Shown: positions 1 to 26,449 of the stretch, piece by piece
Position numbering within the stretch: position 1 is the first letter of the stretch
How the letters are laid out: each line of letters opens with the position of its first letter
Source of the DNA: Chrysomallon squamiferum
Lineage: Eukaryota > Mollusca > Gastropoda > Neomphalida > Peltospiridae
Direction of reading: 5' to 3'
Assembly (NCBI GenBank): GCA_012295275.1
Contig: CM022665.1
Coordinates: 14,601,976-14,665,975, forward strand
DNA: 64,000 bases
Translations under genes and position numbers: made by a program
Notes under the pieces: model-generated
Told to the model about the DNA's origin: nothing
Seen by the model: only the letters and a program-made list of their open reading frames with translations
The model's database searches: none

Positions 1-358
1 TATTATTACAAGTATTATTATTATTAGTAGTAGTAGTAGTAGGAGGAGGTGGCAGAAGAGTTAGCAGTGGTAGTTGTTTTTGCTAATGTAATTTCTCTCT
101 CCATTTGACGTATCTAACTACCCACATACCTAATTACCTACCTATCTGTCTGCCTGTTTCTTCTTATCTCTGTCTATCTGTCTGTCTATCTCTCAATCCA
201 TCCATCCATCCGCCCATTCATCCACCCACCCACCCATCTATCTATCTATCTATCTATCCTCGAGCCCACTCTTTTAAATTATCAAAAAGTCGTAAGTAAA
301 ATAGTGTTATTAAATTACTAATATGCACACGTCTACTGACTGTATGTTTTATACTCAC
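1..358 (-). other. GABBR-like intron, 5' part (runs off window)
   Basis: Intron downstream of exon 4. It holds a (TAG)n tract at about 26-44 and a (ATCT)/(ATCC)/(ACCC) block at 118-258. No coding signal is seen. Confidence 0.7.
118..258. repeat. Compound tetranucleotide microsatellite (ATCT/ATCC/CACC)n
   Basis: Imperfect CTAC, CTGT and CTAT repeats pass into ATCC repeats, CACC repeats and a clean ATCT run just before the last bases. The open frame here is only the repeat read as protein. Confidence 0.9.
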
Positions 359-463
359 CTTTAAATGTCGAATTTGCTGCGACACATCACTTGTTGTGAT
401 AATTTCTGATCTCACTATACTGATTCCCTCTTTCTTCATCAATTTGAACATATCATATATTGG
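359..463 (-). CDS. GABBR1-like: GABBR-like exon 4 (Venus-flytrap domain)
   Basis: 35 codons, phase 0/0, acceptor CTTACAG|CCAATA and donor AAG|GTGAGT. It encodes YDMFKLMKKEGISIV, then RSEIITTSDVSQQIRHLK. This is the family segment between the W-K-K strand and the conserved D-A-R-I-I strand, which would open the next exon. No candidate for that exon exists in 1-358. Confidence 0.83.
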
Positions 464-2619
464 CTGTAAGTAGCAGACGTTATTACATCGGCTATCAATT
501 AAATACTAATCGTAATTTGAAAAACATCAGCTATTGTGTTATACAGGATATGGGAAAATAAAATAAACTGGAACAGAAACAGAGGATAAGATAGATAATC
601 AGACGAAAGACAAAAATGACATAGATACACACATACAAATAGACACACAGACAGATGGATGCACAGTACGATAGATGCTGATGACAATGGCATAGGTAAA
701 GAATGGCAAGTTTGGCACTTTGTGCGCTCTTGAAGGCGGCGCCACTGAGCAATTTCTATTAAACTAGACTGGTATTTTAGAGCTGATTTTATGGTAAAGT
801 TATACGAAAGATAGACGTCGCATGTTTGGAAAAGGTGCACAGTTTCAGTGCTTGTCATAGGCTGGGTTTTCCCTTGACACGCCCTCGTCGATGACTGTGC
901 AAAGCATGTTACCCACTGACGTATTTAGACGCGAGATAAGAACTGTAGCCCCGTAGTTAGGTTTCCGGGTTATATTAGAACTGTTTATGTCTTAAGTTTC
1001 AGTATGTCTTCCCCTACCCGCCAAACAAATCCTAGATACGCTTATGATAACAGGACAAAGAATACATTAAAGTAACATATTGGGATTTCCATGGTTATGA
1101 CGATAACGTATAAATTAAAAATAACGAAATTTACCTCTGAAAAGAGTTCCATTGCTTGGTGTACTGTGGATACTTTTTTCCACTGGAAATACTTGAAGAT
1201 GTCTATACGTGGTGGATTCACATGAGTCGCTGGTGATATTATTCGAAAAAATCTTTTGAAACGATCTTTGTTTGACAATGAAGGTGAAGAGGACAGATGC
1301 GAAATCTAGAATTTACAACAACAACAACAATAATAATTATAATCATGATGATGATGATGACTGTGATGATGAAAATCATAATAAAACTAATGATTTTGGC
1401 TTATTAAAATCGTGTTGCTTCAATAAATAAATAAGTATATATATGGCAAATATACAACATATATCTACCTACCTATGATTATATGTATATGTGAGGGACT
1501 GAACTAAAAGCACAATCTAAAGATACATAAACAACTATTAAAGTATGAGGTTTTTATTTATCCTTGTTTAAACATAAAGTACTTGGGAAATTTCTCCAAA
1601 ACATGTGGGACATTAATATGGTAAACCCTGTCACTGGTGTTTTCTTAAGGAACCCAGGGCAGTAATGGTCAGCCAGTATTGGTCACGGGTGCGAAATGTT
1701 ATCTGTGTGACTGTGGAGAAAGACAGTTCACCCAGCCACATGTGTGTGTGTGTGTGTGTATATATATATACACACACACACATAAACACACACAAACATA
1801 CATATACACACACATAGATACACACATATATACTAACATACATGTATACATACATATATACTTACACACATAGACACACACGTACATACATACATTCCAT
1901 GTATACATAAATACATGTATAGACCAACAGATACACACACACATACACACATACATATACATACATATATACCTACCAAACTTCCTACTTACATATTTAT
2001 ATAAAAAAATGAAAGACACATATACATACATTATTGGTATTACCTGTACAAGATTCCACCTGAACGACACCTGAGCTGTAGCCTCAGATACAGGTGAACA
2101 TGCCCCTCCAATGACCATCAGTTTTTTAGGTGGGGTGTAAAGATGATGATACAAAACATCTAAACTTTCCCCCGCATCACACTAAAAATATAAAAGGCCT
2201 GTCAGTTTCTTTACATCCAAGAGCATTTTCTATTATATATTCTATTACATTATTGTGGTAAACTTTATTTTACTGAATTTTATAATTATTTAAAGTGCAC
2301 CTTTAGAGATACGAAATTCTTTTTATTTCCACGTTATTACTTTATGGTGATAGGCGACTCTTCTTTTCTGATAATAAAATATAACAATAAAATAATACTG
2401 TTATAAATTATACAGACATCGCCGTTTTGTCTTTTCATAACTGTAGTCATGGCGTATTTTTCGGACAAAACCAGAAGAAACTGTAAAGCAAATCGATCCG
2501 CTCTGAATTCGATATCATGACGACTATGGAAAAATAATAATAATAAACACTAATAAATAAATAAATAAGTAAATAAATTAAAAAAAAATAATAATAATAA
2601 TAATAAAAAAAATTTTAAA

Positions 2620-2662
<43 letters not shown>

Positions 2663-3911
2663 AAAAAATAAAAAAATAGAAATGAAATGAAATAAAATAA
2701 ATAAGATTGCGTCTGTATTTCAGACGTTTCTTTTATCTCTTCCTTTCTTTTTTTTCTTTTTCTTTTTTTTTTTGTTCTCCTTTGGCGATTTGAAATAAAA
2801 TTTTGGTGAAAGTCAACATATTGTATCAGCTGAATCTTTTGCTTGACGTGGTGGACAAAATTCCATCATCTTGAATAAATAACGTGGTAATGAACGTCAC
2901 GTCAGAACACCATCAGACCTAAATTATCCTGTTGTTTTATCTTCTGTACGTTTTAATTATATTTATTACTTAACTGAATCAATAGATGTAAGAAAATAGG
3001 AACTGTATTCAGTGATTTCAATGATGTGATGATGCGTAACATCACCAGAAATTAAATCTCATTAATATGCCTCATGGACTATTTCCGTTTCGAGCCAGTG
3101 GGTGGGTTCACTACAGATTCTTTTCTGTTGCTTTCTGCTACTAACTGAAAAAATGTGAGGTTCCTAGATAGACAGTATACCATCTTATTTAGAGAGATGA
3201 TGATAGAAATACAGAGAGTGAATGTAATGGGATTGTTAAAATGAACCTTTGTAACATTGTAGTTTTATTTATTTGCAGTTATTATTACCTTTTGCGATTA
3301 ATTTTATCTATTTAATTGCATTTTAATCTTTAATAGATGCATTTGTATTTTTGTAGTTATTATACTTGTATTTTGTAATTATTGTTATATTTGTATCTTT
3401 GTAATTATTGTTACACTTGTATCTTTGTAATATTATTATATTTGTATCTTTGTAATTATTGTTACACTTGTATTTTGGTAATTATTGTTACACTTGTATC
3501 TTTGTAATTATTGTTACACTTGTATCTTTGTAATATTATTACATTTGTATCTTCGTAGGTAGTATTTCTTTATATTTATTGCTACAGTTGTATCGGTAAT
3601 TACTGTTACACTGGATCTTTATTTAATTGTTACTCTTGTATCGTTGTAATTATTATTACACTTGTATGTTTGTAATTACTGTTACATTTGTATCATACCG
3701 TTACCTTGGTATCATTCCACATTAAGTTAAGTCTGTACCCTGTTAGAATGTCTGATCTTTGATTGATATGTTCCAGGGCCAGTTCCGATGCTGTGAGCAG
3801 GGCCATACCCCCTTTCCAGCTCCCTTGAAACGGCATAAGACCTATCAGGTTAATATCTGTGATACATTCCACACAGAACAGATACACCAGTGAGGTTATG
3901 ATTTGAAACAT
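359..3911 (-). CDS. GABBR1-like: GABA-B receptor-like class C GPCR, N-terminal part (4 exons, partial)
   Basis: Four exons, complement(3705..3911), (2044..2181), (1135..1305) and (359..463), join with all introns in phase 0 into 207 codons. Seen: residues 1-16 start MFQIITSLVYLF and look like a signal peptide; residues 17-207 align with the first half of the Venus-flytrap domain of GABA-B receptors. Landmarks are IGLMPFQGSWKGG, LALEHINQRSDILTGY, the K|C exon junction after NDTK, KKLMVIGGACSPVSEATAQ, RWNLVQ, SSSPSLSNKDRFKRFFR and FQWKKVSTV. Known: GABA-B receptors are plasma-membrane heterodimers in which GABBR1 binds GABA and GABBR2 couples to Gi/o. Features are mixed: the W-x-GG motif and SSSP loop are GABBR1-like, while VIGGACSPVS...WNLVQ and FSE are closer to GABBR2. 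The subunit class, or a lineage-specific paralogue, cannot be fixed. The rest of the ectodomain, the seven-helix domain and the tail lie beyond position 1. Confidence 0.88.
464..1134 (-). other. GABBR-like intron 3
   Basis: 671-bp intron. Part of it (about 640-960) is less AT-rich than its surroundings, but no exon with splice sites and homology was found. Confidence 0.75.
1135..1305 (-). CDS. GABBR1-like: GABBR-like exon 3 (Venus-flytrap domain)
   Basis: 57 codons, phase 0/0, acceptor ATTCTAG|ATTTCG and donor GAG|GTAAAT. It encodes ISHLSSSPSLSNKDRF, FFRIISPATHVNPPRIDIF and FQWKKVSTV...ELFSE. This matches the family pattern of an SSSP-type loop, then FFRT, NP-x-R and W-K-K. The serine-rich loop contributes to the GABA site in GABBR1 and is AATTP in GABBR2, so this exon favours a ligand-binding type of subunit. 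Confidence 0.9.
1306..2043 (-). other. GABBR-like intron 2
   Basis: 738-bp intron. Its middle (1740-1975) is a TG/TA/CA block. Short CAA and GATGAT tracts lie at 1315-1370. Confidence 0.8.
1740..1975. repeat. (TG)n(TA)n(CA)n palindromic microsatellite with CA/TA-rich extension
   Basis: A (TG) run, then (TA), then (CA) makes a near-perfect inverted dinucleotide block at 1740-1796. It is followed by about 180 bp of interrupted ACACATA and ATACAT repeats. Confidence 0.9.
2044..2181 (-). CDS. GABBR1-like: GABBR-like exon 2 (Venus-flytrap domain)
   Basis: 46 codons, phase 0/0, acceptor TTTTTAG|TGTGAT and donor CAG|GTAATA. It encodes CDAGESLDVLYHHLYTPP, then the KKLMVIGGACSPVSE loop, then FRWNLVQ. 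It starts exactly at the conserved Cys that follows the Asp-x-Lys of exon 1 in GABA-B receptors. Confidence 0.88.
2530..2705. repeat. A-rich low-complexity tract with poly(A)
   Basis: AAT and AAAT repeats, a pure A run of about 36 at 2625-2660, then TAAAAAA repeats. Confidence 0.9.
3340..3697. repeat. Degenerate 26-bp minisatellite in GABBR-like intron 1
   Basis: About 13 copies of a unit close to TTGTAATTATTGTTACACTTGTATCT by plus-strand reading (TTGTAATTATTGTTACACTT then GTATCT). Copies are well conserved at 3390-3540 and more decayed towards 3690. The array ends within 10 bp of the exon 1 splice donor. Confidence 0.85.
3705..3911 (-). CDS. GABBR1-like: GABBR-like coding exon 1 (signal peptide and start of Venus-flytrap domain)
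   Basis: 69 codons, phase 0 at its 3' end. On the minus strand a run of T followed by CAG lies directly before the ATG at 3911, so this may be an internal exon whose first codon is the start, with 5' UTR exons further upstream. The donor is AAG|GTAACG. The leader has a hydrophobic core (ITSLVYLFCV) and possible cleavage near C16. The mature part carries SWKGG, the conserved Trp-x-Gly-Gly region of the ligand-binding lobe. Vertebrate GABBR1 has a Cys soon after GG; here the residues are MALL. Confidence 0.85.
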
Positions 3912-4354
3912 CTGAAAAAAAAAAAAAAAAAGATTGATAACAACTGTAATAAACGATACTTTTGTTGAAAAAGAGGTAATTGAAATAGATGTATGGTTAG
4001 ACTGACAGACAGATAGACAGAGATATTGACAGATAAAGACGCAGAAAGATAAAACTTATTTATTTTGAAAGCTAACAACCCCCACACACACATTCTAATT
4101 ATTTAAAATATACGTAATTATATAACACTCGCTAGTTATTTTTAGAGAAAACATTCTGTCCCTGTCACGTTTAAAACTGTTTACAGATAATCAGTGTACT
4201 ATACAAATGATCATTAAGCTTGTTAACGAGTTGTTAGAAACTGGCAGTCAGGTATTATGTACCAGCTTGTCTTCTGTTACGTACACAGATAGCTTATCTT
4301 AACACAAAACAGTAAAGACCACTCCTCTAGCTAGTCTTAATTGTGAAGATTGTG

Positions 4355-4487
4355 TTTGTTTGTGTGTGTGTGTGTGTGTGTATGTGTGTGTGTGTGTTTG
4401 TCTGTCTACATATATATGTGTGTGTGTGTGTGTGTATGTGTGTGTGTGTGTTTGTCTGTCTACATATATATGTGTGTGTGTGGGTGT
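4355..4487. repeat. (TG)n microsatellite with an internal ~64-bp duplication
   Basis: The block (TG)n-TATG-(TG)n-TTTGTCTGTCTACATATATA-(TG)n occurs twice in tandem with near identity. A short (TC)n run follows at 4533-4551. Confidence 0.88.
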
Positions 4488-4849
4488 GTGCGTTATGGAT
4501 TAACTACAGCTAGGGACTTTTCAGGATATAATTCTCTCTCTCTCTCTCTCTCATACTAGTTGTACGTCTTTAAACAATGTATTCATACCGCGGCGAGTTG
4601 ATAATTATATTTGTGATAATAACAACAGTAATGTGGAAATAATGAAGTGAATATTTCCCTATGGAAATTATTTCAGCTGCTTCATCAAGTCGACATTATT
4701 ATTTTTATGAACTGATATTAATGTGTGTACTGAATTATTTATATTATACCATTATGTTATGTTGTTCCTAGTGACATTGTATATAAAAACAAAACTCTTG
4801 TTATTAACAGCCCAGAGCCACATTACATTTTTTAAATAATAATCATAAC

Positions 4850-5320
4850 AATAAATAAATAAATAAATCATCATCATCATCTTCGTCATCATATTATTAT
4901 TATCACCATCAATATTGGCAAATGAATGATGACATCCTTAGCTATCATACCAGTGAAGCATTTATTATAATTGTTATTATTATTATTGCTGTTGTTGTTG
5001 CTGTTGCTATTATTATTATGATTATTATTATTATCATTGTTCCTTTTATTATAGATAACGGTTGGAACTTACACACACACACACACACATACACACACGC
5101 GCGCATGCACACACGCATAAAAACAATGATAAAAACCCAAATAGTTGTTCTATAATCATACCATCATCACAAGCAGCAGAAACAACAACAACAATAATAA
5201 TATTAATATTAATAATAAAAGTAGTAGTTGTATTAATAGCAGAGCAGTAATAGTAGTAGTGGCATTTGCAGTATTAATAATAGTAGCAGTAGTCGTAGTA
5301 GTAATAGTAGTTGTTGTAGT
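4850..5320. repeat. Trinucleotide-rich region (ATT, GTT, CAT, GTA) with (CA)n
   Basis: Interrupted triplet repeats in several registers, plus a CA run at 5072-5098. They produce open frames on both strands with hydrophobic or Asn/Val-rich translations, which are artefacts of the repeat. Confidence 0.85.
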
Positions 5321-5574
5321 TAATGGTAACGACAGCGTGGATGAAGATGACATTAACAATACTTACCTTGCAGAATTTCACTTCACTGTAAATTTATAAA
5401 GAGTTCAGCACAGAATACTTGAAAAACGTATTTGATAGTTGCTGTTTTTAAGACAAATCCACTACGGATTTGTGAAGTATATATTTCAGTTAATCAGAAC
5501 GGCAGTCTTGCACGCCATTGGTCTATCCTACGCCAGTCCGAAATGGTTGTTTGTCGTTACGAAGATATTGATCC

Positions 5575-5730
5575 AAAAAAAAAAAAAAAAAAATTAAATA
5601 AATAAATATAAAATAAAATAAGAAATAATTTAAAAAATTAATAAAATAAAATAAAATGTAAAATATAAATTAAAATTAAAAATAGTAATAATAAAAAAAT
5701 AAAAATAAAAATAAAATAAAAATAAATTGT
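5575..5730. repeat. A-rich low-complexity tract
   Basis: Poly(A) of about 17, then AAAT and AAAAT repeats. Confidence 0.88.
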
Positions 5731-5829
5731 AGTTATTTCTGTGGTAAATCACATTTACGACAAAACCATTATGCGTATATTACTGTATTTTAATTTTTTA
5801 ATTTATTATTCTTGTTTATTTATTGATAC

Positions 5830-6095
5830 AAAACAACAACAACTACTACTACTACTACTACTAATAATAATGTTATTGTTATTGTTATATTATTATGATT
5901 ATTGTTGCCGATTATGTTTAAACAATATTTCGTTATTTAATATTGTTTTGTTGGTTTGTTTTTTATTGTTGTTGTTCTTTTTTCAAAGAGGAAAAAAAAA
6001 AAAAAAAAAAAATAAAAAAAAAACTTCTGCCAGTATATTGTAGATCAAATATTAAAAAAGAAAAGAAAAAAGAAGAAGAAGAAAAAAAGGTTTTG
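5830..6095. repeat. Triplet and poly(A) low-complexity region
   Basis: ACT/ATT/GTT triplets at 5835-5900 and 5955-5975, long A runs at 5990-6022, and AAG repeats at 6055-6090. Confidence 0.85.
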
Positions 6096-6459
6096 ATTGA
6101 ATAGATACCTATTTACTGCAAATAAATTATGAATATTTATAAATATATATTTTATGATTTTTATTTTATGTGTACATTCTCTTTTCGTCTGTAATTACAA
6201 GGATGCCTCTATAGATATATGCGTATTTGTAAGTTTAAGTATCTAATGTACATCTTTATATAACGAATGTACCATCTTGTTAACTGTGTATTACATTTAC
6301 AGTGTACCTCAAAGGCAGCTGAATTATGGCCAGGGTGTAAATATAGTTCAGTTCAGTTTGCGATTTTTTCCCCCTTTCAAACAATGTTAATTAGTGTAAG
6401 AGAAATTAAACAGTGAAATGACACATAATTATTTGAAACACGGACTGATCCTATTAATT

Positions 6460-6770
6460 TATATATATATATATATGTATATACGCAAGTACGTGTGAAT
6501 GTGTGTATATGTAGGTATGTACGTATGTACGTATGTACGTATGTACTTATGTACTTATGTACTTAAGCATTTATGTATATATATGTATTCATGTAAATAT
6601 ATATGTGTATGTTTGTGTGATGTATGCATGGATGGATGGATGGATGGATGGATGGATGTGTATATGAGTATATGCAGATGTGTTTGTGAAAATGTATGTA
6701 TGTATACATGTGTATATATATATATATATATATATTTGTATGCATGCATGTTTGTATGTGTGTGTAGTTT
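6460..6770. repeat. Tetranucleotide block (GTAT/GTAC)n, (GGAT)n and (TA)n
   Basis: GTAC/GTAT repeats at 6511-6566, (GGAT) of about 8 units at 6627-6658, and (TA)n at about 6712-6735. Confidence 0.9.
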
Positions 6771-6973
6771 GTACGTGTGTCTATACATGTGTATCCGTGC
6801 AGACATTATAGAAAGGACCATTCAGCTGACCTCAGGCTGACTAATTTGTTAATATCTCGCTAATTTAGGTGAAAATGACTGTACTAATGACCATGCCAAT
6901 GGCATTAATATTGGATTACTGAAAATGGAAAATGATGCTAGTAAGCAAAAATTTAATCTGTGCGCTTATTTTT

Positions 6974-6978
<5 letters not shown>

Positions 6979-7060
<82 letters not shown>
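6979..7060. repeat. (CT)34 (GT)7 microsatellite
   Basis: Uninterrupted CT from 6979 to 7046, passing directly into GT to 7060. Confidence 0.95.
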
Positions 7061-7061
<1 letters not shown>

Positions 7062-8663
7062 CTGTCAATGAATATTTAGAAATTAACGTACAAAAGTTAT
7101 TTGAACAATCAATAATGGGCTGTTGTTGTGTTTTTGTCGCTAATCAAATGATCCAGAAACCAAAATGATAAAGAAATGGTCAACTAAATTAATAGTCTTT
7201 AAGTGTTAAATAATGGTGGTCAGTGGTCAGTAAACGGTCAAAACAAGACCAGCGAAACTGATTTATAAACAAGTATATACATGCTTGTATCCAAGACACA
7301 TTTCAGAATGAAGTTACTAAAAACAAAAGTCTGTTTTCGTAGTAACAAACATCAACTGTTAATTTGTAACCTGATTCCATGGCTGAATTCTAAGCTGTTG
7401 TAAAAACTCTGTGGTTTGGTCTAAGCATAAAACGACATGTCCGTAAATATTAGACATATTATGTTATTAATTATTGTTACTAATGTATTGCTGCTGTTGT
7501 TGTTTTCTGTCGAACGGCCACAGAAATATTAAAAATAAAATTAGTTATATCATACATCGTTACAAATATTGTTACATGTTGCTGTTGTCGTTGTCAGGGC
7601 TGTTATTATTGTTGTATTTTCTGAGAAAGAAACTTTGCCATCGCATCTCCATAACAATATTTGGTAACTAAATATGTTATATATTATTAAACACAAATAA
7701 TACGTTGTTCTTATTGTTGTTGTCGTCGTCGTCGTCGTTGTTTTCTGAAAGAATTTAGTTACAAATCTCTATAATAAAATGGATCAACTAAATCCATAGT
7801 GTTTTTTATATTTGTCAGATCGATGGGATTATTATTATTATTGTTGTTGTTATTGTTGTTAATCCCTGTAATAATTATATTTAATCCTGTTTATTTATTT
7901 TAGCTAATTTGATGTATTTGTGTTCATAATGAATGTTTCGTAATTATTTTTTTCCTTTGTTTCTGCATGTCTGTTTTTCTTCATTTTTTGTTTTCTTTCT
8001 TTCTACTGACTACTTACCAAATCTGCATTTATTAATACTAATAATACTGTCGTACTAAATATACTGGATACAAGTCGAAATAGTTTTACTTTAATTTTTT
8101 AATCGAATTATTACAGTCAACCAACATTTTTATTATAGTTAGCAATTTTAATTTCAGATGATTATTGTTTCATTTGGTTATTTTGTTTTAGTTTTTTCTA
8201 TTTTGTTTTTGTGGTTTAGATTAATGTCTCTTTTATATGTTTTGTCATGTAATAGTTTTGTTGTTAGGTTGGTATAGGTGGTGGTTTGTTGTTTTTAATT
8301 TTATTTATTTATTTATTTTAAATATTCGTAACAACACCAATAATTTTTAAGTAAACATCCGTACTAAATCATTTTTATATTAATACAGAATATTCCGAGT
8401 GTTAAAAGTGACATTCCGAGTGTTAAAAGAAATCTTGTATAACGCCATAAAGCTATAAACAAAATAAAAAAATAAAAAGTCGGACTTTTACTTGAAAGAT
8501 CATTTATATAAAAACAAAGGCATCTATTCTTAATCGAAATGGATTATACATAAAAGATTTAATTTTTTTTTAAATCTGGGTTTTAAAGACTATTTGCACG
8601 AAGAGGATAAAGGCCATAAAGTTGTTGTAATTTATTTTCTATCAAGACACAGAAGCTTCAAAT

Positions 8664-8738
8664 ATGGCGGCTTACGAAGAGGTGCATGCGTACTGTTCAG
8701 TTTTTAAGACGCATATCAACAGTCTCTGTTCTAAGTGA
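8664..8738 (+). other. Short plus-strand ORF with an ATGGCGGC start context (possible first exon or regulatory site)
   Basis: A 24-residue ORF (MAAYEEVHAYCSV...) begins at AATATGGCGGC in an otherwise AT-rich desert. ATGGCGGC is a common animal start context and also resembles the YY1 core. A TTCAG is followed by T-rich sequence. No downstream partner exon was recognised on the plus strand, so this may be chance, a promoter-proximal element, or the first exon of an unseen transcript. Confidence 0.18.
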
Positions 8739-9097
8739 AATGATTCCAACGGCGATTTAAATGCATTTTGACTATTGCAGCTTAAAAATAATTTAAATAA
8801 TGCAATTTTATGCCTTGTCACAAGTTTTTGCTTTTTTGTTATTTTGTTTATTTATTTATTTATATTAAACTATAATTGATCATGGTTGCATGAAGTTAAA
8901 TTTAAGAAAATGCTCCTTCTACCAAGTATACAAAACAAGCACTGCATCTACAGAAAATACAGTTTTCATAAGAATCGTGTTCAGACAGCGTTCATTGAAA
9001 GCTTTGAGATCTTGTGCAGGTACCGAATAATTTATCGGGCATGCTTGGGACGGGAGGTTGATCGGTTTTGTGGACTTAAAATATAAAATAAGCAATG

Positions 9098-9125
9098 AAA
9101 AAAAAAAAAAAAAAAAAAAAAAAAA
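9098..9125. repeat. Poly(A) run (~28)
   Basis: Pure A run following GCAATG. Confidence 0.92.
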
Positions 9126-9886
9126 TGAAAAAACCTGAATCTTTAATTAACAGATACAAATTATTATACTCTAAAATATGATCTGTTTGGTCTTTATTAA
9201 TCCACTGAGTTCTTAAAATACCTTTACAGAATACCATGCGCTGTTACTATAAACAGGATGAAAATTAAACGAAGAAAAGAAAGAACATAATTTTTATTTA
9301 AAAGATACATGTACAAATAAATACACTTCTTAATACATTTAAATTTCCAATAAATAACCTGTATAAGACGAAAAAAAAAAATGATAATAATAAAGAACAC
9401 CACTACACAGGAACAGTCTCACTTAAACTGCCATTGTTCATCATGCATGTCATAGAAACCACAATTACTGCCAGATTTAAAAGTAGCCAGATAATTAGTT
9501 TGGTACTTGTATTTGATTTAGTATAGTGAATACTGGCATTCAAAATACTTGTTTTTGGAGATCACTAAAATGTATCTATCTATACAGATGTTCATGAGAA
9601 AAACTGACAGCAGAATGTGAGAGAGGGGGAGAAAGAAAGAATTATATAATAAAAAGACAGTCATTATGGAGGTACAGTTTTATTCAATGTTCACAGCAGT
9701 TCAACAAAGTTTTCCTGTACAGTGAATGGTATTTTGTAATAATGTAAAAAAATATAGCATACATCCAACCATTTACACAATTATATTTGAAATATCTTCA
9801 TGTTAAAACTATCCACTCAGTTTATTTGAAATAAAACCAAATCTAAACCCAAAATTTAAAAATAATAATAATAGTATAAATAAAAC

Positions 9887-9928
<42 letters not shown>

Positions 9929-9932
9929 AACA
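9887..9932. repeat. (ATA)n microsatellite
   Basis: About 12 pure AAT triplets followed by AAATA repeats. Confidence 0.92.
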
Positions 9933-10110
9933 CTAAAAAGTCACACTAAACAAATGAGAATAAGAAAACAAATATATTTAAACTATTTATATTCATTTTT
10001 ATTTAAATTATGTTATTTAATAGTAATGCTAATATATGTAATATAGTAAATATAACTCAGCAGTCAAGTGTTATCACAGGCAGAAACTAGTCACAAAAGT
10101 CCTCAATGCA

Positions 10111-10111
<1 letters not shown>

Positions 10112-10151
<40 letters not shown>
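10112..10151. repeat. (TG)n microsatellite
   Basis: About 19 uninterrupted TG units. Confidence 0.93.
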
Positions 10152-10153
<2 letters not shown>

Positions 10154-11899
10154 CTCAATGTGTTTATGCAGATATGTATCCATACATAGATAAGTACATT
10201 TGTTTCAATAAAACCAACCATTTTACCACAAATAGCAAACAATTAATTAACGCGTCCATGAAAATGGAGGGAATCATACCATTTCATTCAGAATGTAATT
10301 CTTAAAACATTTAACGATATATGCCAAACACAAACCAGCTAAGTACAAAACAGTTATTTGAAAAAAAAAAAAAAATAATAATAATATTTACTTCTACCTC
10401 TGTTAAATACACTATTACATCACTAAATTATCTGCTGTCTTGTTATAATCACAACCATCATATTTTTCTGTTCATGAACTATGGCGGTGAGAATATTTAT
10501 AGAATAATTATAAAAAATTAAAATTAAAATTATTACCTGCATTAAAATGATGGTATTAACATAAATGTACAATTTATTTTTAAAATATATTTGTTTGTTA
10601 ATTTATAATTAAATATACTAAGAAAAAAGTTTTAGTGTAAAAGATTAGCTAGATTTAAAACCCAACAATAACTGAAAACAAAACAAAAAAACCCAACAAA
10701 ATTAATCCAAGAAATGCAAAAACAAACCCTCACCCCAACCCCCCTTACAATTTCAAAATATTTAATAAGCAGTCTAAAAAGTATGAAATAAAACTGTTTA
10801 ACAAATCTCTAACTCGCCAACACTGATATATTTTATATTTAGTTGGGAAAATTTTCAGTTACGCCCATTCAGTTTTAATTAAGAAGTATAAAATAAGCAT
10901 ATTACAGCAGAGGCTAAATGAAAGTAATGTAACGAGCAAGGTACAATAATAATAATAACTAACTAAATAAGTAAATAATGTACTGTTTAGTATCAACAGA
11001 GTAATAGGTATATATAATTAAAATAAATAATGATGACAACATACCCATATGTTTCATGTATGATGGCTAATTACAACTTCAATGAATCAATGATTGTTAA
11101 AAATTCAAAGATACATGTTGGTCCTTTTATTTATATATGTATTTAATGTCAACAATTTGTTAACATGATTTAAAAAATATATAAGAATAGTAATAATAGC
11201 ATGCATACCAACAACAGTAACTGCAATATTGAGTAGTATCCAGAATAATATTAACAGCAATAATAATAATAATAATAATAAAACTATAATATGAATCATA
11301 ATAATAATAAGAATGTAAATAATAATAATACTAAATAAATATTTTAATTGATTAATTAATTTAATAAATAAGGAGATTAAACACAACAACAAAGAAAAAA
11401 ACCCCAACTATTAGTTTCTAACAGTTTTGAGTATTTCAACAGACTGAAAAATTATGTATCTTGCTTTTAAAACAGGATTGTAAATATATAAATCAATTGA
11501 TATTAGCATTAAAATGACCTTGGCTTATTTTTTTAATATTTTTATTGTCTGTTCTTGTCCTTACTGTACTTAGTAATCTGAGTTATTACATTGATTTCAC
11601 AAATCTAATAATGACAGCATGTGAAAACAACCATTTTTCTTTAAAACCTTTTTTTTTTCTTCTGTTCTTTTCAATGGTTATTCAGTATCATAAACAGTTA
11701 TTTTCATTAGCATTATTATCAGTATCAATGGAAATATCCAATATTCGGTAAGAACTTATAACTAGATTTTTATTTGTCTTATGTTAAGACATACATAAGT
11801 GTCAATAAATAATAACTGCGCCTAGTTTGGTTTGCCCTTGAACCAGGTAACCATTTGAATATGTAAGCTGAATCATGACTGTCCTTGACAATACATAAA

Positions 11900-11961
11900 C
11901 AAACAAAAATAATAATAAAAATAAATAAATAAAGTAAAATAAAATAAAATAAAATAAAGAA

Positions 11962-12010
<49 letters not shown>

Positions 12011-12090
12011 TTAATAAAGAAATAAATAATTTAATAATAAAAAAGAAAATTATAATAATTAAAACAAAATAAAATAAAATAAATACAGGA
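11900..12090. repeat. Compound (AAAT)(AAAAT)(AAT)n microsatellite
   Basis: AAAT units, then AAAAT pentanucleotides at 11935-11960, about 15 AAT triplets at 11966-12010, then a second AAAAT cluster at 12062-12085. Confidence 0.92.
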
Positions 12091-14412
12091 ACCCATGTTA
12101 TTTCCCAGAAAGGGTTTAATGTGTTAGATGATTTCAAAGAGAAAAAAACATGATGGTTTTTGGATGTACCCTGTTAAATAAAGTTAGAAGTCAGTATCTG
12201 TCTGTCTGGAGCAGAATGACTTAACATCTGCCATATCACAATGTGACTTTGTGCTTTAAATTTGTTATATACAAACACACATAAATCAATGTTGTATTAA
12301 CTGTAACCAGATTTTATTTTTAAATTTAATCTTTCATTCACCTATTTTTATGATTAAATAACATTTCAGAATATAAATGTTGTTTGTGAGAATACATTTA
12401 AGATGGTTTTATTATGAATGATACTGTATTAAATAATGTGATTTGACATAATAATAGAGATTGCATAATAAAATATGTTACAAGATATACAAACAATTCA
12501 GCTGTGAGATATGCTTAAGAACTCTTCTTTTGTGTGTGTGTGTATGAGTGTGTGTGTGTGTGTATTTTTCTTCTGTGTATACAAGTTACTAGCTAGGAGG
12601 AAAACAAAGATATACAATTGTACAATATAATGTGATAATAACAAAAAAATATATAATAAGATACACAAAGCTAGAGTGTTGATAGTTTTAACTTTTCCCC
12701 CAAGTCTACATTTTATATTATAACTTAAATATAATCAAACACAAAATATACCTACTGTATACTATTATATAATTAATAATTTTAAATTTACAAAATCTCC
12801 ATGTAACAAGTAGTTTAAAACCAGAAACATGGTCACTTAACAAAATTTGTAAGGAGAATGAATAAATGGTTTAGCAAGTTGAAGTTTAAAATAATGTTTT
12901 CTACTATTATATTTTAAATAACAGTATTTTATTTTATTATTTTATTTTCTGTGAATGAAAACTAAGATTAAAAACATTTATCAGAAGTACTGATATGCAC
13001 AAATAATGTAAATACATATAACTTAACAGCATTTCTCTTTTGTGCAGAGATGTATGTTTTTCAAACTAACATTCAAAATGCTTATTTTAATTGAATCAAA
13101 AACACAACCTGATATTTTCATACACAAATTATAGACACATATAAATTTTACATAAATCAAAATTCTTACAAGAGATGGTCATTTATTTATTTATTAATTC
13201 ATTCATTCTTTCTTTCAGTCGTTCATGGACAAAAGCAAAAACAGAAAGCAAGAAAAGCAAACAAAATAATTCATTAATGTAATGACAACATGATTAATAA
13301 TAATTATTTTTTAAATATTAACTCTTGATCCAAATAAATGAATCATATTATTTGCATAATTGTATTGGTGGCAAATTACATTAAACAATAAACACATTTT
13401 TCATTTAATTACGTATAAAAATAAAATAAGAAATGCAGTAAACCGTAGCAAAAATATACACCATCTTTTTTAATCATTCAAATAGCTGAACATTGCTAAA
13501 AGCATGGACAAACATGAGCATTTTTTAATTTTTAATTTTTAATTTTGTTTTTACTTTCAGTCAAATTGTTGAATTCTGCAATAAAAACAAAATGAGCAGC
13601 TGTAAAAAGTTTTAAAACTGCTGAACACTGCAAAAAATAGAAATTGTTTGCCATCAAAACATTATTAACAAGAACATCACCAGTTCACTTTAAGTTTTAG
13701 TAAAGAAAATAAACATTAACTATCACATAAAATTCAAGTCAAACTGCTTTATGGAATATACTGGTACTCAGTGACATAGGCACAATCCTAGTATTTGTAT
13801 CTTGTACAAATATTATAAATAAAAATACAAAAATAATAAAACATATTATGAAATAAGTACACATTTAAATGAATGTAACATACCTAAATTATAATATTGA
13901 GGAATAATTTTAACTGTTAATGACTTGTAATCTAATGATTTGTAATATTGCCATTAAAGTATCTTGTTATGATAAAACTAAATATAATATTGTTATATTT
14001 TGCTATAACACAAGTGAATACTCATACATCTTTATATTACAGCTGAATATCATCTTTTTATCATACAACTAAATTATTTGAATTATCTTCTGTATATTAT
14101 TGAATAATTATAATTGTTAAACATATTTTGATTGTAATTATCAAAGACTGATACTGAATATTACAACAGACACATAATTCATTATAAACTTTTGTTAATA
14201 TTGCTAGTCGTCATACAATCCATTACAAACTTGAAATATTAGAAATGTTGTGTAACTTATTGTGAATGTAATAACTGTCAGATGCAATATTACAACATAA
14301 ATGAATATAGTAAGTGTCTTATGACAAGAACAATTATTCCACGTCATATACCCCGATATAAAACATAACCCAATATGATAATCAGCGAATTCATGTTTTC
14401 TGATACAAAAGA

Positions 14413-14624: not shown

Positions 14625-17600
14625 CTAAATTTCAAAATATAATAATAATAAATGAAGTGATGTGAGGCAAAACAAAGCATTTAATGTTAAATAAAAAAGT
14701 AATATCTTTATTCAAACATTTGTTACAATATATAATTGGCTGCATTTTATTTTCATTTTTACTCTGTCTGCCATACAATTTCTTTTCTTTATTTTCATTT
14801 CATTTTATTTTATTAAATTTTATAAAAATTAAAAAAAAACACGTTTTAGTTTTTTCACATTTTTTTGCATAAAAGCTAAAATGTCAGCCTTCAAACCTTC
14901 TCACAGGTTTATTATTTCATTTTCTTACTTCAATGTTCATAAAGGTTGATTTCTGTATTAAATAAAACAATAACTTGCTGGGATGCAAAATGTAGAAGTT
15001 TGGAGGATAGAGTATTTTCAATATTAATTAAAATACCTGTTGCCAGTTACCCTGAGAAGGAACTTCCAGTAAGCTGGTCTGAGATTGTGAGGCTCTAGAA
15101 CAGCCTGTAAAACAAACAATTAATTTTCTTTCAGGAAAAAAGCTCCTATTTTAAGATATTTATTTTGTAAAATGTTAATAGCAGTGCCAGGTTTTAGCAT
15201 ATATAATTAGTACACATGTATTGGTGAATGTGAGTGTGCTTGCAAATGTGTGTATGTGTGTGGGTGCTTGCATGTGCATGTTTAAGTATATTTCTATGCA
15301 TGATATTATGTGTATTGTTATGTATTTTTTGTGCTGGGTTATTATACATTGTTTCCTTCATTACATTTAGCAGAAAGAATTGTAACACTGTTTTGGATAG
15401 TTTTTCATTTTGTGGGTTTTATCATGATTTTATTTTTCAACTTAATATAAAAACACATATGCTTACATGTGAATAAAAAAAAAAATATATATATATATAT
15501 AAATTTAAAATAATAATAATAATACACTTGTTATTCATACCATTTGCATTATTCAAGCCTCAAATAAGTATCTTTAAAAATATTAATGCATCTGAAAGCA
15601 AAGTTAAGTTAACAAATAACACTACAGTTAGTGTATTTTGTATTTACTTAAATCAACCTGTACTAGTACATTCCTCTACAACAGTTACTAAAACTCTGAA
15701 CGTCTGGTTATGAAGTAATCGTTGTATCTCCCACTTATCCTGTGTTGTTTTAATATTAACTTATCACTGTAGACACAAATACATTAGAAGTAATCATATA
15801 CTCTTGTAATTTTCTTTAAAATCATTTATCAGTTGGAGCGTGATGGTAAATCATGACCCTAATATATAATGAGAATTCTGTTTTGGTTCTAATATGCTGA
15901 AATGTATTTTGATATTAAAAACTCGTAAATAAATGTATCATTTTGCTTAATATCAAAGTTACTTATAAACAGTTGATTTTGATAGTTCAGGATAGAATTT
16001 TTAGAATGACTTATCTGAAATTACATTGATCAGAATATTGTTGTATTCTGCAATAATAATATTAACATTATACACACTCCCACAGAGCTGATGAGAAATC
16101 TATTAAACCAAAATATATCAGATTTTTTTAAACTGTTTTATTTAATGAGATGTTCAACAGATTTTATTTATGGTTAGGACCATGCAGACAATTAGATAGG
16201 AAACCTACAAACACCACTTCACTGGCCACTCTTTCCAATTAGCAGCAGTATTTTTGCTAATTTCAGAAAACATATTAAACAACTAGATTAGTTTAGGATA
16301 ATGACAATATTAACGGAAAAAGGGAATAAATTAGTTTGGTGTGAAATAAGTGAGCAAAAAAAAAAAAAAAGTAATAAATAAAACATTCTGGGATATCATT
16401 ACTGATGAGTTACTATTATTTTAAAAAAAATGAATGTGGGAGGAAATATTTTTAACTAAAGTTTTTAATCATGATCAGTTAATTAGAATCTCTGAATTAA
16501 CTGATGCAAGACTAACTGGGTTTTTGTTTATTTTCAATATTATATTATATTATATTATATTATATTATATTATATTATTATTTATTTATAAGAGTAACAG
16601 AGTAATTTTAAATAAATATCTTAATATAAATCAAACAGACACGAGAATACATAATTTAAAATAGATGAAAAACTGAGATTGACAAGTTGCAATGGAAATG
16701 TGTGTGTGTATGTATGTATATATATGTTCTATGGTACGTCATAATTATGTGTATGGTAGGTATGTGTGTTTTAAAAGCAGTTAAAAGGCAAGAACTCACA
16801 GCATGGAAGGCAAATGCAGTTGAAACGGCATAGATTATGACATCAGCGCATTTGATATAGGGTAAGAATCCAGCCTTTATTCCCTTGAAATACAGAAGCT
16901 GAAATTAAAAGAGACACTGGTATTATGTAAGCTAATTATACACTGAAGTATATTAACTGCACTGTTAGTATTAAAATTCTGTTTTGGTGAAACACAATGT
17001 ATAACCAACAGTCTGCCATGAGATTATACCAAAGTATTTTTGATATCATTAAGCATTTATTTATTCCCAGAATATGATATAAAAACAAGAAAGTGATATG
17101 TTTTATTGTGTATTGTAAAAATGAGGTTAGTATTATAAAAATGAAATGTAACTGAATAGGCCAAGTGTTTAATGTCTTTCTTGGCATTTCTTTTGTCATG
17201 TTACTTGCAGTAAACAATATGTTAACTGTTAAAAAGCAAATGACAGACAGTCTGTTGTAAAAACTATAAGTTACAAATTACAAGTAAATTTACTGATATT
17301 TATAACACCAAATTTAGTTGCTGTTTATATTCATAACAGTCCCTTCTGTTTTACAAACCCAGAACACCACTGTCATAATTTGTATACAAAGTTTGTGACA
17401 TTGTTCTGTTACTTTTATTATATCTTTAGCCACTACTGTATCAACTACATTGTCTTTATCATGTACTATGTTCTTGTTACTTATCTCACCAAGTCTGGTT
17501 GTTTCAGCAAGTCTGGTTGCAGCATACAGTGTGATGACAACAACATCAACATCACTGTTACTTACCTCAGCAAGTCTGGTTGCAGCATACAGTGTGATGA

Positions 17601-19939
17601 CAAAAACATCAGCAGTGTCTACATCACTCACTACGTCACTGTTACTTACCTCAGCAAGTCTGGTTGCCGCATACAGTGTGATGACAAAAACATCAGCAGT
17701 GTCTACATCACTCACTACGTCACTGTTACTTACCTCAGCAAGTCTGGTTGCCGCATACAGTGTGATGACAAAAACATCAGCAGTGTCTACATCACTCACT
17801 ACGTCACTGTTACTTACCTCACAAGTCTGGTTACCTCAGTGTGATGACAAAACATCTGGTTCACGCCACTGTTACTTACCTCAGCAAGTCTGGTTGCCGC
17901 ATACAGTGTGATGACAAAAACATCAGAGTGACATCACTCAACATCAAGTCTGGTTGCCGCATACAGTGTGATGACAACAACATCAGCAGTGTCTACATCA
18001 CTCACTACGTCACTGTTACTTACCTCAGCAAGTCTGGTTGCCGCATACAGTGTGATGACAACAACATCAGCAGTGTCTACATCACTCACTACGTCACTGT
18101 TACTTACCTCAGCAAGTCTGGTTGCAGCATACAGTGTGATGACAAAAACATCAGCAGTGTCTACATCACTCACTCACGCCACTGTTACTTACACAGCAAG
18201 TCTGGTTTGCAGCATACAGTGTGATGACAACAACATCAGCAGTGTCTACATCACTCACTACGTCACTGTTACTTACCTCAGCAAGTCTGGTTGCAGCATA
18301 CAGTGTGATGACAAAAACATCAGCAGTGTCTACATCACTCACTACGTCACTGTTACTTACCTCAGCAAGTCTGGTTGCAGCATACAGTGTGATGACAAAA
18401 CATCAGCAGTGTCTACATCACTCACTACGTCACTGTTACTTACCTCAGCAAGTCTGGTTGCCGCATACAGTGTGATGACAACAACATCAGCAGTGTCTAC
18501 ATCACTCACTACATCACTGTTACTTACCTCAGCAAGTCTGGTTGCCGCATACAGTGTGATGACAACAACATCAGCAGTGTCTACATCACTCACTACGTCA
18601 CTGTTACTTACCTCAGCAAGTCTGGTTGCAGCATACAGTGTGATGACAACAACATCAGCAGTGTCTACATCACTCACTACATCACTGTTACTTACCTCAG
18701 CAAGTCTGGTTGCCGCATACAGTGTGATGACAACAACATCAGCAGTGTCTACATCACTGTTACTTACCTCAGCAAGTCTGGTTGCCGCATACAGTGTGAT
18801 GACACTGCTCTTATACAACATCATGGACCAGCCAGACATGAACCCAGCGATGAGTCCATGTACACAGTCGTCTTTATCCCGAAACCATCGTAATGCACAG
18901 TTTACTGCCTGTAACATTATTTAATATGTGTGAATAACAAGAACAACAATAATAACAATAATAAAATACATCCATATCCATGCCCTTCCTCCAGATTGAG
19001 AAAACTGCCCAAGAAACTCCAAACAAGAAGAAACAAATATATATATAACTTTAGATGCTACAGATTTTCAGTTCATCTAATTTATTAATTTGAAATTTCA
19101 TTTTAATCGTTACTTGACAACTTACAAATAGATGTGGAATGATGTTGATAAATAAAATAAAAAACTGTTTTACATTCTGTAACTTTAATTTTTTTTAATA
19201 TCATTATTATGTAAAACTACAATGAAATAAATGATACATTTCTGCACATTTATCTCATACGAGTTATCTCCCTTTGATCCTTACAAATTTTTTTTCAATC
19301 AAACTATACAGAATAATGGAGAAGAACCAAATATGCAAACAATTTGTTGTATTTTTTTAAATAAAATACATGAAAACATAAAGAACAATATACTTTTTCT
19401 TTTAAACTTATTTTAAAAACAATGGAACAACCTAGAAATTGAGCAAAATAGCAAAATAAGTAACTAGAAATCATGTTTTACTTTTGAACTTACTTTAAAT
19501 ATGGCAGAATAACAACCTAGAAATCCTCCAAGACTAAAACTATCTTTGTTGAAGAATACTCGAAGCAGAACGGATGGCTGTTGATTTATCTTTGGCAACA
19601 CTGACAAGAATTTTACCACAGTCTGAATACCATAGCCTAATCCAAACTGTTGATAGAAACCCTGAAATAAAAATATTTTTAAATAATAAAGGTTATAAAA
19701 ACATAATGATAATAAACAATAATTTCACACAGTTGCTGGAAATAATGCTAACAGATAAAAGTGTAAGTTGTTTTCATTCAGTCAGTTTTCTTCTACATAT
19801 TAAATCAAGTATTTAATAATTAGTAAGGTAGCATTATGCAGAATATTCAAAAATTGCCAGCTGCTACAAATAATTATTGTTCATCTGAAAGTATGCAGGA
19901 TTAATTAATATCAGTGACTGTGAATCAACAAAAAGTTAT

Positions 19940-24902: not shown

Positions 24903-26449
24903 AAGAAAATGCAGGATAAAAAAAGAAATGAAAACATGTATCTAAACATACATAAATCTTTTTTTTTTAAATTAAAAAAATATGAAAACATTTCTGCCAT
25001 TCATTAACTCATTGCTGACCTTCTTCTTCACAAAACAATGCTTCACCCAATACCCCTCAATTCCTTGTCTCACGCTCATAAAAACAAAATGGAATAAAGA
25101 GCCCATATAAAAATAATATTACCAAAAAAGAAAAAAAAAAGAAAAAGAAGATAAAATAGGGCAATTGTGTGAACAATAACTCGAGATGTAATCACCCCAG
25201 CACTGTGTGGCAGATGGTGTAGGTAGGCAGCACACATGGGAAGATGACAATCTATTGCCTTTAAAAAACCCCAAGTCATAAAAATCAGACAGGCAGTCAT
25301 GAGTTATGTCCACAGTACACAACCACAAGCTTAGAAGCCCAAATATTTGATCTCACTACCAAAATGATGATGTTGATGATGATGTTGATGATGATGATGG
25401 TCATCCCTCCACCAGGATGAAGAAGTTGACTGTTCCATTTCTGGAATGATGAAAATGGATAACCAACTTCTAGAATGATTAAGAATGGTTACCCCACTTC
25501 TGGGATGATGAAGATGATTATAGCATTTACATGAATGATGAAGATTTTTTATATCATTACATGAATGATGCAGATGGTTATTCGGTACCAGGAAAATGAA
25601 AATGGTTATCCAGGACTAGGATGATGAAGATGATTTTCCAATTTCTGGAATGATAAAGATGATTATCATATTTCAGGATTGAGGAAAATGGAGGTCACAT
25701 TTTCAAAATAACCAAAAATAATTATCCCATTTCTGAGATGACAAAGATGATTACGACACTAAAATGATTTTAAAACTGATCCTACTATCAACATGATGAA
25801 GGTGATGATCCCACTGATATCCAAAGAAGAAATCCTGTTATTTCCCAAATGACCATCAAACCATTATCATTTATTCTGACCATAAACATGCCATGTGAAG
25901 CAAAATACTTTTCTTTTTGCTTCTTCTTTTTTTTTTTTTTTTTTTTTTTTTTAGCTGTTTTGCACGTTTGTTTAAACCAAGCACCTTCTGCTGCTTTAAG
26001 CATTGTGATCACAAAAAAAAAAAAAAAAAAAAAACATTTAAAAAAAAATCATAATAAATAAATAAATTAATAAATAAATAAATACAAGTATCATAAAAAA
26101 AGTCCCCCATAACCCCAATAAAGGCTTCTAAACCATATTTCCAGAACAGGTGAAGTTGTTTTTTTAATCATAAGGTTGAAAATAAAACTGTCACGGTTGG
26201 TTTAAATTCATTGTTGTGTGTGATCACCAAACATTAATCTATTGGAAATATTACAGTAATATATCACAGGAATAATGGAAATAGAAATCTTTATAAATTA
26301 TGTAGGTATTAAATGTAATAAAATCTTAACTGCTTTTATACCTGACAGTTGATGTTTGGATTTAGGAGGAGATTAGTTTATGTGTTATAGCTGTTTAAGA
26401 ATACATGATTTAATTTTATTTTTTAGAATATACATTTTTTTAAATTAAA

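Follow-up and report, generated by a model that had tools for sequence, protein, structure and literature searches.

A minisatellite built on an exon end and its splice donor in the TMEM135 gene of Chrysomallon squamiferum

In the gastropod Chrysomallon squamiferum the end of an exon assigned by homology to TMEM135 recurs, together with its splice donor, as a minisatellite of 17 copies. Within the window, the whole 64-kb stretch of DNA analysed here, the last 36 nt of the exon are repeated 17 times on the minus strand (18803..17501), and most copies bring with them the donor and as much as 48 nt of the adjoining intron. We interpret the array as a mirage-type minisatellite of an exon–intron border, and consider it likely that the donor of the exon proper (donor 1) does most of the work and that the array leaves with the intron.

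Results

The gene and its homologues

The array-bearing gene, coded on the minus strand of the window, is on homology TMEM135, because the Pfam domain Tim17 matches a stitched 136-residue piece (E 4.5e-10) and the stitched protein is 84% identical over 199 aa to the TMEM135-like protein of Gigantopelta aegis, a peltospirid gastropod. Searched with this reference by tblastn, the window yields seven stretches, all on the minus strand and in the order of the protein, at about 53.1 (weak, E 0.001), 24.3, 19.6, 18.9, 16.9, 15.1 and 14.6 kb; with the Tim17 domain they make up homology in TMEM135 exon order. Residues 1-14 and 32-47 of the reference find no tblastn match in the window. From tblastn, boundaries and frame, the parent exon is placed at 18908..18768 (minus strand, 141 bp), with phase 0 at each end. 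The terminal 36 nt encode VITLYAATRLAE and are followed by the donor GTAAGTAAC. The intron that holds the array runs over 1869 bp (18767..16899, minus strand), from the donor GAG|GTAAGTAAC at 18767 to the acceptor TTTTAATTTCAG ending at 16899, and the next exon (16898..16800, minus strand, 99 bp, LLYFKGIKAG...FHA) joins the parent exon at a phase 0 junction.

A homologue search scored 8000 candidates and gave 25 homologues, the best being that of Gigantopelta aegis. Twenty-three of them are named, those 23 all from molluscs; several are isoforms of one gene, and most are gene predictions by name. All 25 are contiguous at the junction of the parent and next exons, reading E|xxYxKGI with no insert. 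Peptide fragments derived from the intron part of the array occur in none of the 25, though 108 residues of the 302-residue query came from reading through the array.

Anatomy of the array

Tandem Repeats Finder reports a period of 84 at 17552-17930 and 17945-18804, with a score of up to 1527, and a further row, of period 168, at 17717-18758. Anchors drawn from two separate parts of the unit agree on the copies: GTCATCACACTG has 17 matches and AACCAGACTTG has 18, the additional one in a copy at the distal edge. The original prediction, that a TMEM135 exon end and its donor had become a minisatellite of about 17 copies, is thus borne out by the repeat finder, the anchors and the protein matches, at a copy number given by one assembly. 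It had also made every unit 84 bp long. Nine of the 16 copy-to-copy intervals are indeed 84 bp, and the remainder range from 60 to 85; along the array they read 72, 84, 84, 84, 83, 84, 84, 85, 84, 84, 60, 67, 79, 84, 84 and 63. The content foreseen for the unit, 12 exon codons, a donor and some 40 intron bases, needs a similar adjustment: the 36-nt exon end and, in most copies, the GTAAGT donor are present, and the intron part is 48 nt long in units of the 84-nt form, that of the first copy being 36 nt. By comparison, the donor minisatellite of human IFI6 reportedly has a unit of 12 bp.

The exact donor GAG|GTAAGT is kept in 14 of the 17 copies, precisely the fourteen originally claimed, and GTAAGT occurs 15 times in total. 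Copy 8 is altered on its exon side, copy 11 has lost its donor, and copy 17 is cut short and donorless. As had been proposed, the parent copy can be recognised, since in translation LYKSS precedes solely the copy at 18803. Twelve GTGAGT hexamers also lie inside the array (18677-17631, minus strand), mostly in a near-duplicated 12-nt stretch of the unit.

Within the window the unit appears to be confined to this place. The best match to it elsewhere in the 64-kb window has an E of only 0.23, and we reject a dispersed repeat on that ground. No array of the kind was seen at any of the six remaining TMEM135 exons in the window; an exon-flank comparison gave 42 matches elsewhere, of which 39 fall in the simple AAT-type sequence flanking the 24.3-kb exon and the other three are isolated matches of 17-25 nt. 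Other tandem repeats are present in the window. Diverged repeats of 28-30 bp, in overlapping Tandem Repeats Finder rows, occupy 25435-25682 between the 53.1-kb and 24.3-kb TMEM135 matches, with no recognised exon adjoining, and a 26-bp minisatellite with higher-order periods of 51, 77 and 103 bp lies at 3340-3694. Ten long open reading frames of the window, four of them within 1-14400, gave no Pfam match above the curated cut-off.

Homogeneous centre and decayed edge

The nine 84-nt copies, the only ones counted here, have a mean identity of 98.3% and a minimum of 96.4%. Variation is limited to three of their 84 columns; one lies in the exon part and the other two in the intron part, and each has two states that combine in mixed fashion along the array. 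Beyond the last full copy stands a decayed 18th copy (17500..17452, minus strand), which keeps 16 nt of the exon end and reads GAG|ATAAGT, its donor carrying A at +1. The next 33 nt match the intron part of the unit at 23 positions, a level reached by none of 5000 shuffles; after removal of the first 10 nt the match is 14/23, reached by 17 of 5000. This edge copy aligns with a score of 40 to the 84-nt form (0/500 shuffles reach it) and of 26 to the 72-nt form (20/500), and the alignment contains 12 nt that the 72-nt first copy does not have. A more decayed 19th copy is weakly suggested at 17451..17403 (minus strand), where the global alignment score is reached by 3 of 1000 shuffles. No deeper copy was found in the intron past 17424, the best score of 25 being reached by 46 of 300 shuffles. 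Such a drop in similarity away from the exon is expected of an array that is anchored at the exon, homogenised in its middle and decaying at its free end.

The exon end differs from that of Gigantopelta in three residues, T, R and A here against A, K and G there. Fourteen of the 17 copies read exactly as the parent exon at those residues, and copies 8, 11 and 13 are altered there; the T codon falls within a search anchor, and T is therefore no independent test of the agreement between copies and exon. The R site is K in 21 of the 25 homologues. The edge copy (17500-17485) reads ATRLGE, retaining R but carrying Gly (GGT) at the Ala site, a residue that it shares with Gigantopelta aegis; this Gly may preserve an older state of the exon or may be due to chance.

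Donors, frame and acceptors

Modelled as a duplex with the 5′ end of U1, the array donor has nine consecutive paired positions and an energy of -12.3 kcal/mol. The three other TMEM135 donors that were modelled, at about 19.5, 16.8 and 15.0 kb, gave -5.6, -5.5 and -7.7 kcal/mol, and the GTGAGT site of a typical copy pairs more weakly than the array donor, at -6.5 kcal/mol. Across the 64-kb window the pattern [ACG]AG|GTAAGT occurs 15 times on the minus strand, 14 of them in the array with donor 1 included, and nowhere on the plus strand. U1 may bind the copied donors, and the cell may use them.

Which of the donors would the cell use? From the parent exon, read-through is open and ends in phase 0 at donors 1-5 (18767, 18695, 18611, 18527 and 18443, minus strand; region 18767..18355). 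Use of donors 2-5 would extend the exon to 213, 297, 381 or 465 nt with an unbroken reading frame that keeps phase, and the predicted in-frame insertions are of 24, 52, 80 and 108 aa. Copy 5 has lost 1 nt, which puts donor 6 (18360) out of phase; from there the shifted frame meets a stop in the next exon. Donors 7-15 come only after codon 184 of the extended exon, which is a stop. When the intron part was shuffled 20000 times, 17.6% of shuffles of the 84-nt form and 31.7% of the 72-nt form were also open. Since the open read-through is within chance of these shuffles, it is not evidence of donor use. Selection on the frame of the unit is rejected as well: 12 of the 16 intervals are multiples of three, but nine of these are the same 84-nt form and four intervals are not multiples.

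Judged by a simple and crude pyrimidine count, most copies of the array look like poor exons. The array contains 96 AGs, of which 90 are preceded by no more than 50% pyrimidine; the other six all have G before the AG, and the consensus unit has no AG above 50%; on this crude count we reject the units as exons. The real acceptor has 69% pyrimidine upstream, a value equalled by the AG at 17835 in the array and exceeded by the AG at 17226 further down the intron (75%).

Discussion

Based on these observations, we propose that a tandem duplication across the TMEM135 exon–intron border placed in the intron a segment made up of 36 nt of exon, the strong donor and some 48 nt of intron sequence, and that slippage or unequal exchange then raised the number of copies to about 17 while keeping those in the centre uniform. 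At the distal edge one copy would have escaped homogenisation and subsequently decayed, while the parent copy would have been held fixed by coding selection. Donor 1 (18767) is most likely the main one, being the only donor that adjoins a full exon with an acceptor of its own, 141 nt upstream; the downstream copies would act as decoy donors lacking good acceptors. We infer both the manner of growth and the choice of donor. The array is most likely removed with the intron by splicing from donor 1, a reading favoured because all 25 homologues are contiguous at the junction and none contains a repeat peptide. It is weakened because those are predicted proteins of other species that possibly have no array. 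In classical competition between 5′ splice sites the site nearer the acceptor is often favoured, which counts against donor 1, and the donor sequence of the copies is identical to that of donor 1. Minor use of donors 2-5 is possible.

A working multi-donor array, as in human IFI6, would produce isoforms with zero to four inserted units of 24 or 28 residues, and frameshifted, probably decayed mRNA from the later donors. The identity of donors 1-5, their open phase and a predicted U1 duplex stronger than those of the three other TMEM135 donors modelled speak for it, as does IFI6 itself, in which two downstream repeat units serve as donors and three mRNA species arise (PMC4526556). We nevertheless hold it to be unlikely, as open frames are unremarkable among the shuffles, the insert would double a membrane-protein segment beside a conserved junction, and that insert is found in 0/25 homologues. 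It is considerably less probable that the array has been kept because many downstream U1 sites help to define the exon, or because it gives U1 a landing platform that would counter premature polyadenylation or serve intron retention. The concentration in the array of 14 of the 15 minus-strand sites would suit such a role, and exon skipping can be corrected with a modified U1 that binds downstream of the donor (PMC4822034); the title of PMC5933811 links PAH splicing with U1 binding downstream of a donor. Against it, homogenisation alone keeps donors equal, with 3/84 columns varying in the nine clean copies, and donors are absent from copies 11 and 17 and the edge copy and changed in copy 8, so that selection on the donors is not demonstrable. 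A structured RNA is rejected: no Rfam match reached the gathering threshold in the window, and the fold of the unit is no stronger than that of its shuffles (z 0.78, 0.58).

Two further readings carry less weight still. That one or a few copies were inflated or scrambled in assembly strikes us as very improbable. The indels in copies 5, 8 and 11-13 are of the kind that long-read consensus can leave in repeats, and could be consensus errors in part; one amphioxus mirage, moreover, appears aberrantly assembled in the draft genome, according to PMC3087553. Duplicated reads would not be expected to give shared variants, a decayed edge copy and a distinct 72-nt first copy. The variant GGCGTGA, common to copies 8 and 12, points to descent rather than random read error, and shared variants, mixed two-state columns and a decayed edge together argue for a real history. 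Least credible of all, and rejected, is a retained intron translated as a repeat protein: the exon frame is open through copies 2-5, but it breaks in copy 5 and terminates at codon 184 of the extended exon, and the repeat peptide is missing from every homologue despite its large share of the query.

The reading that we prefer, of a border minisatellite spliced out from donor 1, has precedents, and the structure, held to be unusual in the original prediction, is unusual without being unique. PMC3087553 describes amphioxus mirages as tandem repeats of exon–intron borders with units of 10-72 and 150-160 bp and AG/GT in many copies, which evolve in concert with their edges excluded, are unstable in length and, judged by RT-PCR, leave regular splicing undisturbed. 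They were found there in Adh3 and in the globins BflGb6 and BflGb9, to which PMC3902484 adds PGBD5 and TnC. We assign the TMEM135 array to this class because three features looked for in its anatomy are all present: a unit lying across the exon–intron border of a real gene, splice signals kept in many copies (14/17 with exact GAG|GTAAGT), and a concerted centre with an excluded edge (98.3% mean identity in nine 84-nt copies; 23/33 and a lost donor at the edge), the last judged from copy identities. As in amphioxus, minisatellite-size repeats cross the border and the genuine exon is intact, and as in BflGb6, where concerted evolution operates, the cluster is homogeneous within and its boundaries are excluded. 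BflGb6 repeats the acceptor side, whereas BflGb9 repeats the 3′ border of the exon, as the present array does. The array differs from the amphioxus cases in phylum (a mollusc) and in gene, and its copies number about 17, where the two BflGb6 haplotypes have 6 and 3. Length instability and normal splicing are reported for amphioxus mirages, whereas the TMEM135 array is known from the DNA of one assembly.

The human IFI6 (6-16/G1P3) donor minisatellite (Turri, Cuin and Porter 1995, cited in PMC4526556) is a second precedent; use of downstream donors is stated for IFI6, whereas use of those in TMEM135 is hypothetical. Likewise, internal tandem repeats at exon–intron borders in human segmental duplications, and the gain of introns through tandem duplication, change exon–intron structure through duplication across splice signals (PMC2812944, PMC4974935); new introns are inferred in those cases, whereas in TMEM135 the intron is longer and no new one is evident. 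A shallow literature search, weak as evidence of novelty, found no mollusc example of a splice-site array at an exon border, and no paper came up for TMEM135 together with minisatellites. For minisatellites, splicing and molluscs the only similar array among the papers looked at was that of PMC3902484, in the lancelet. In the parts consulted, neither the study of C. elegans minisatellites near alternative splicing (PMC4039745) nor that of earthworm intron repeats (PMC12783039) describes the same structure.

What are the implications of such an array? We think it quite unlikely that an array of variable length, holding 14 near-perfect U1 sites, acts as a heritable splicing dial, set between donor 1, in-frame extension at donors 2-5, and frameshifted, decayed mRNA; if it did, a change in copy number between animals would alter the amount and form of TMEM135 protein. 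Part of the history of array growth can be read from the graded decay that runs from the parent exon to the edge. The array is a natural test of donor choice, in which the cell meets fourteen identical donors told apart by position alone. It is also a mirage case outside the chordates, of a kind proposed as raw material for new introns (PMC3087553).
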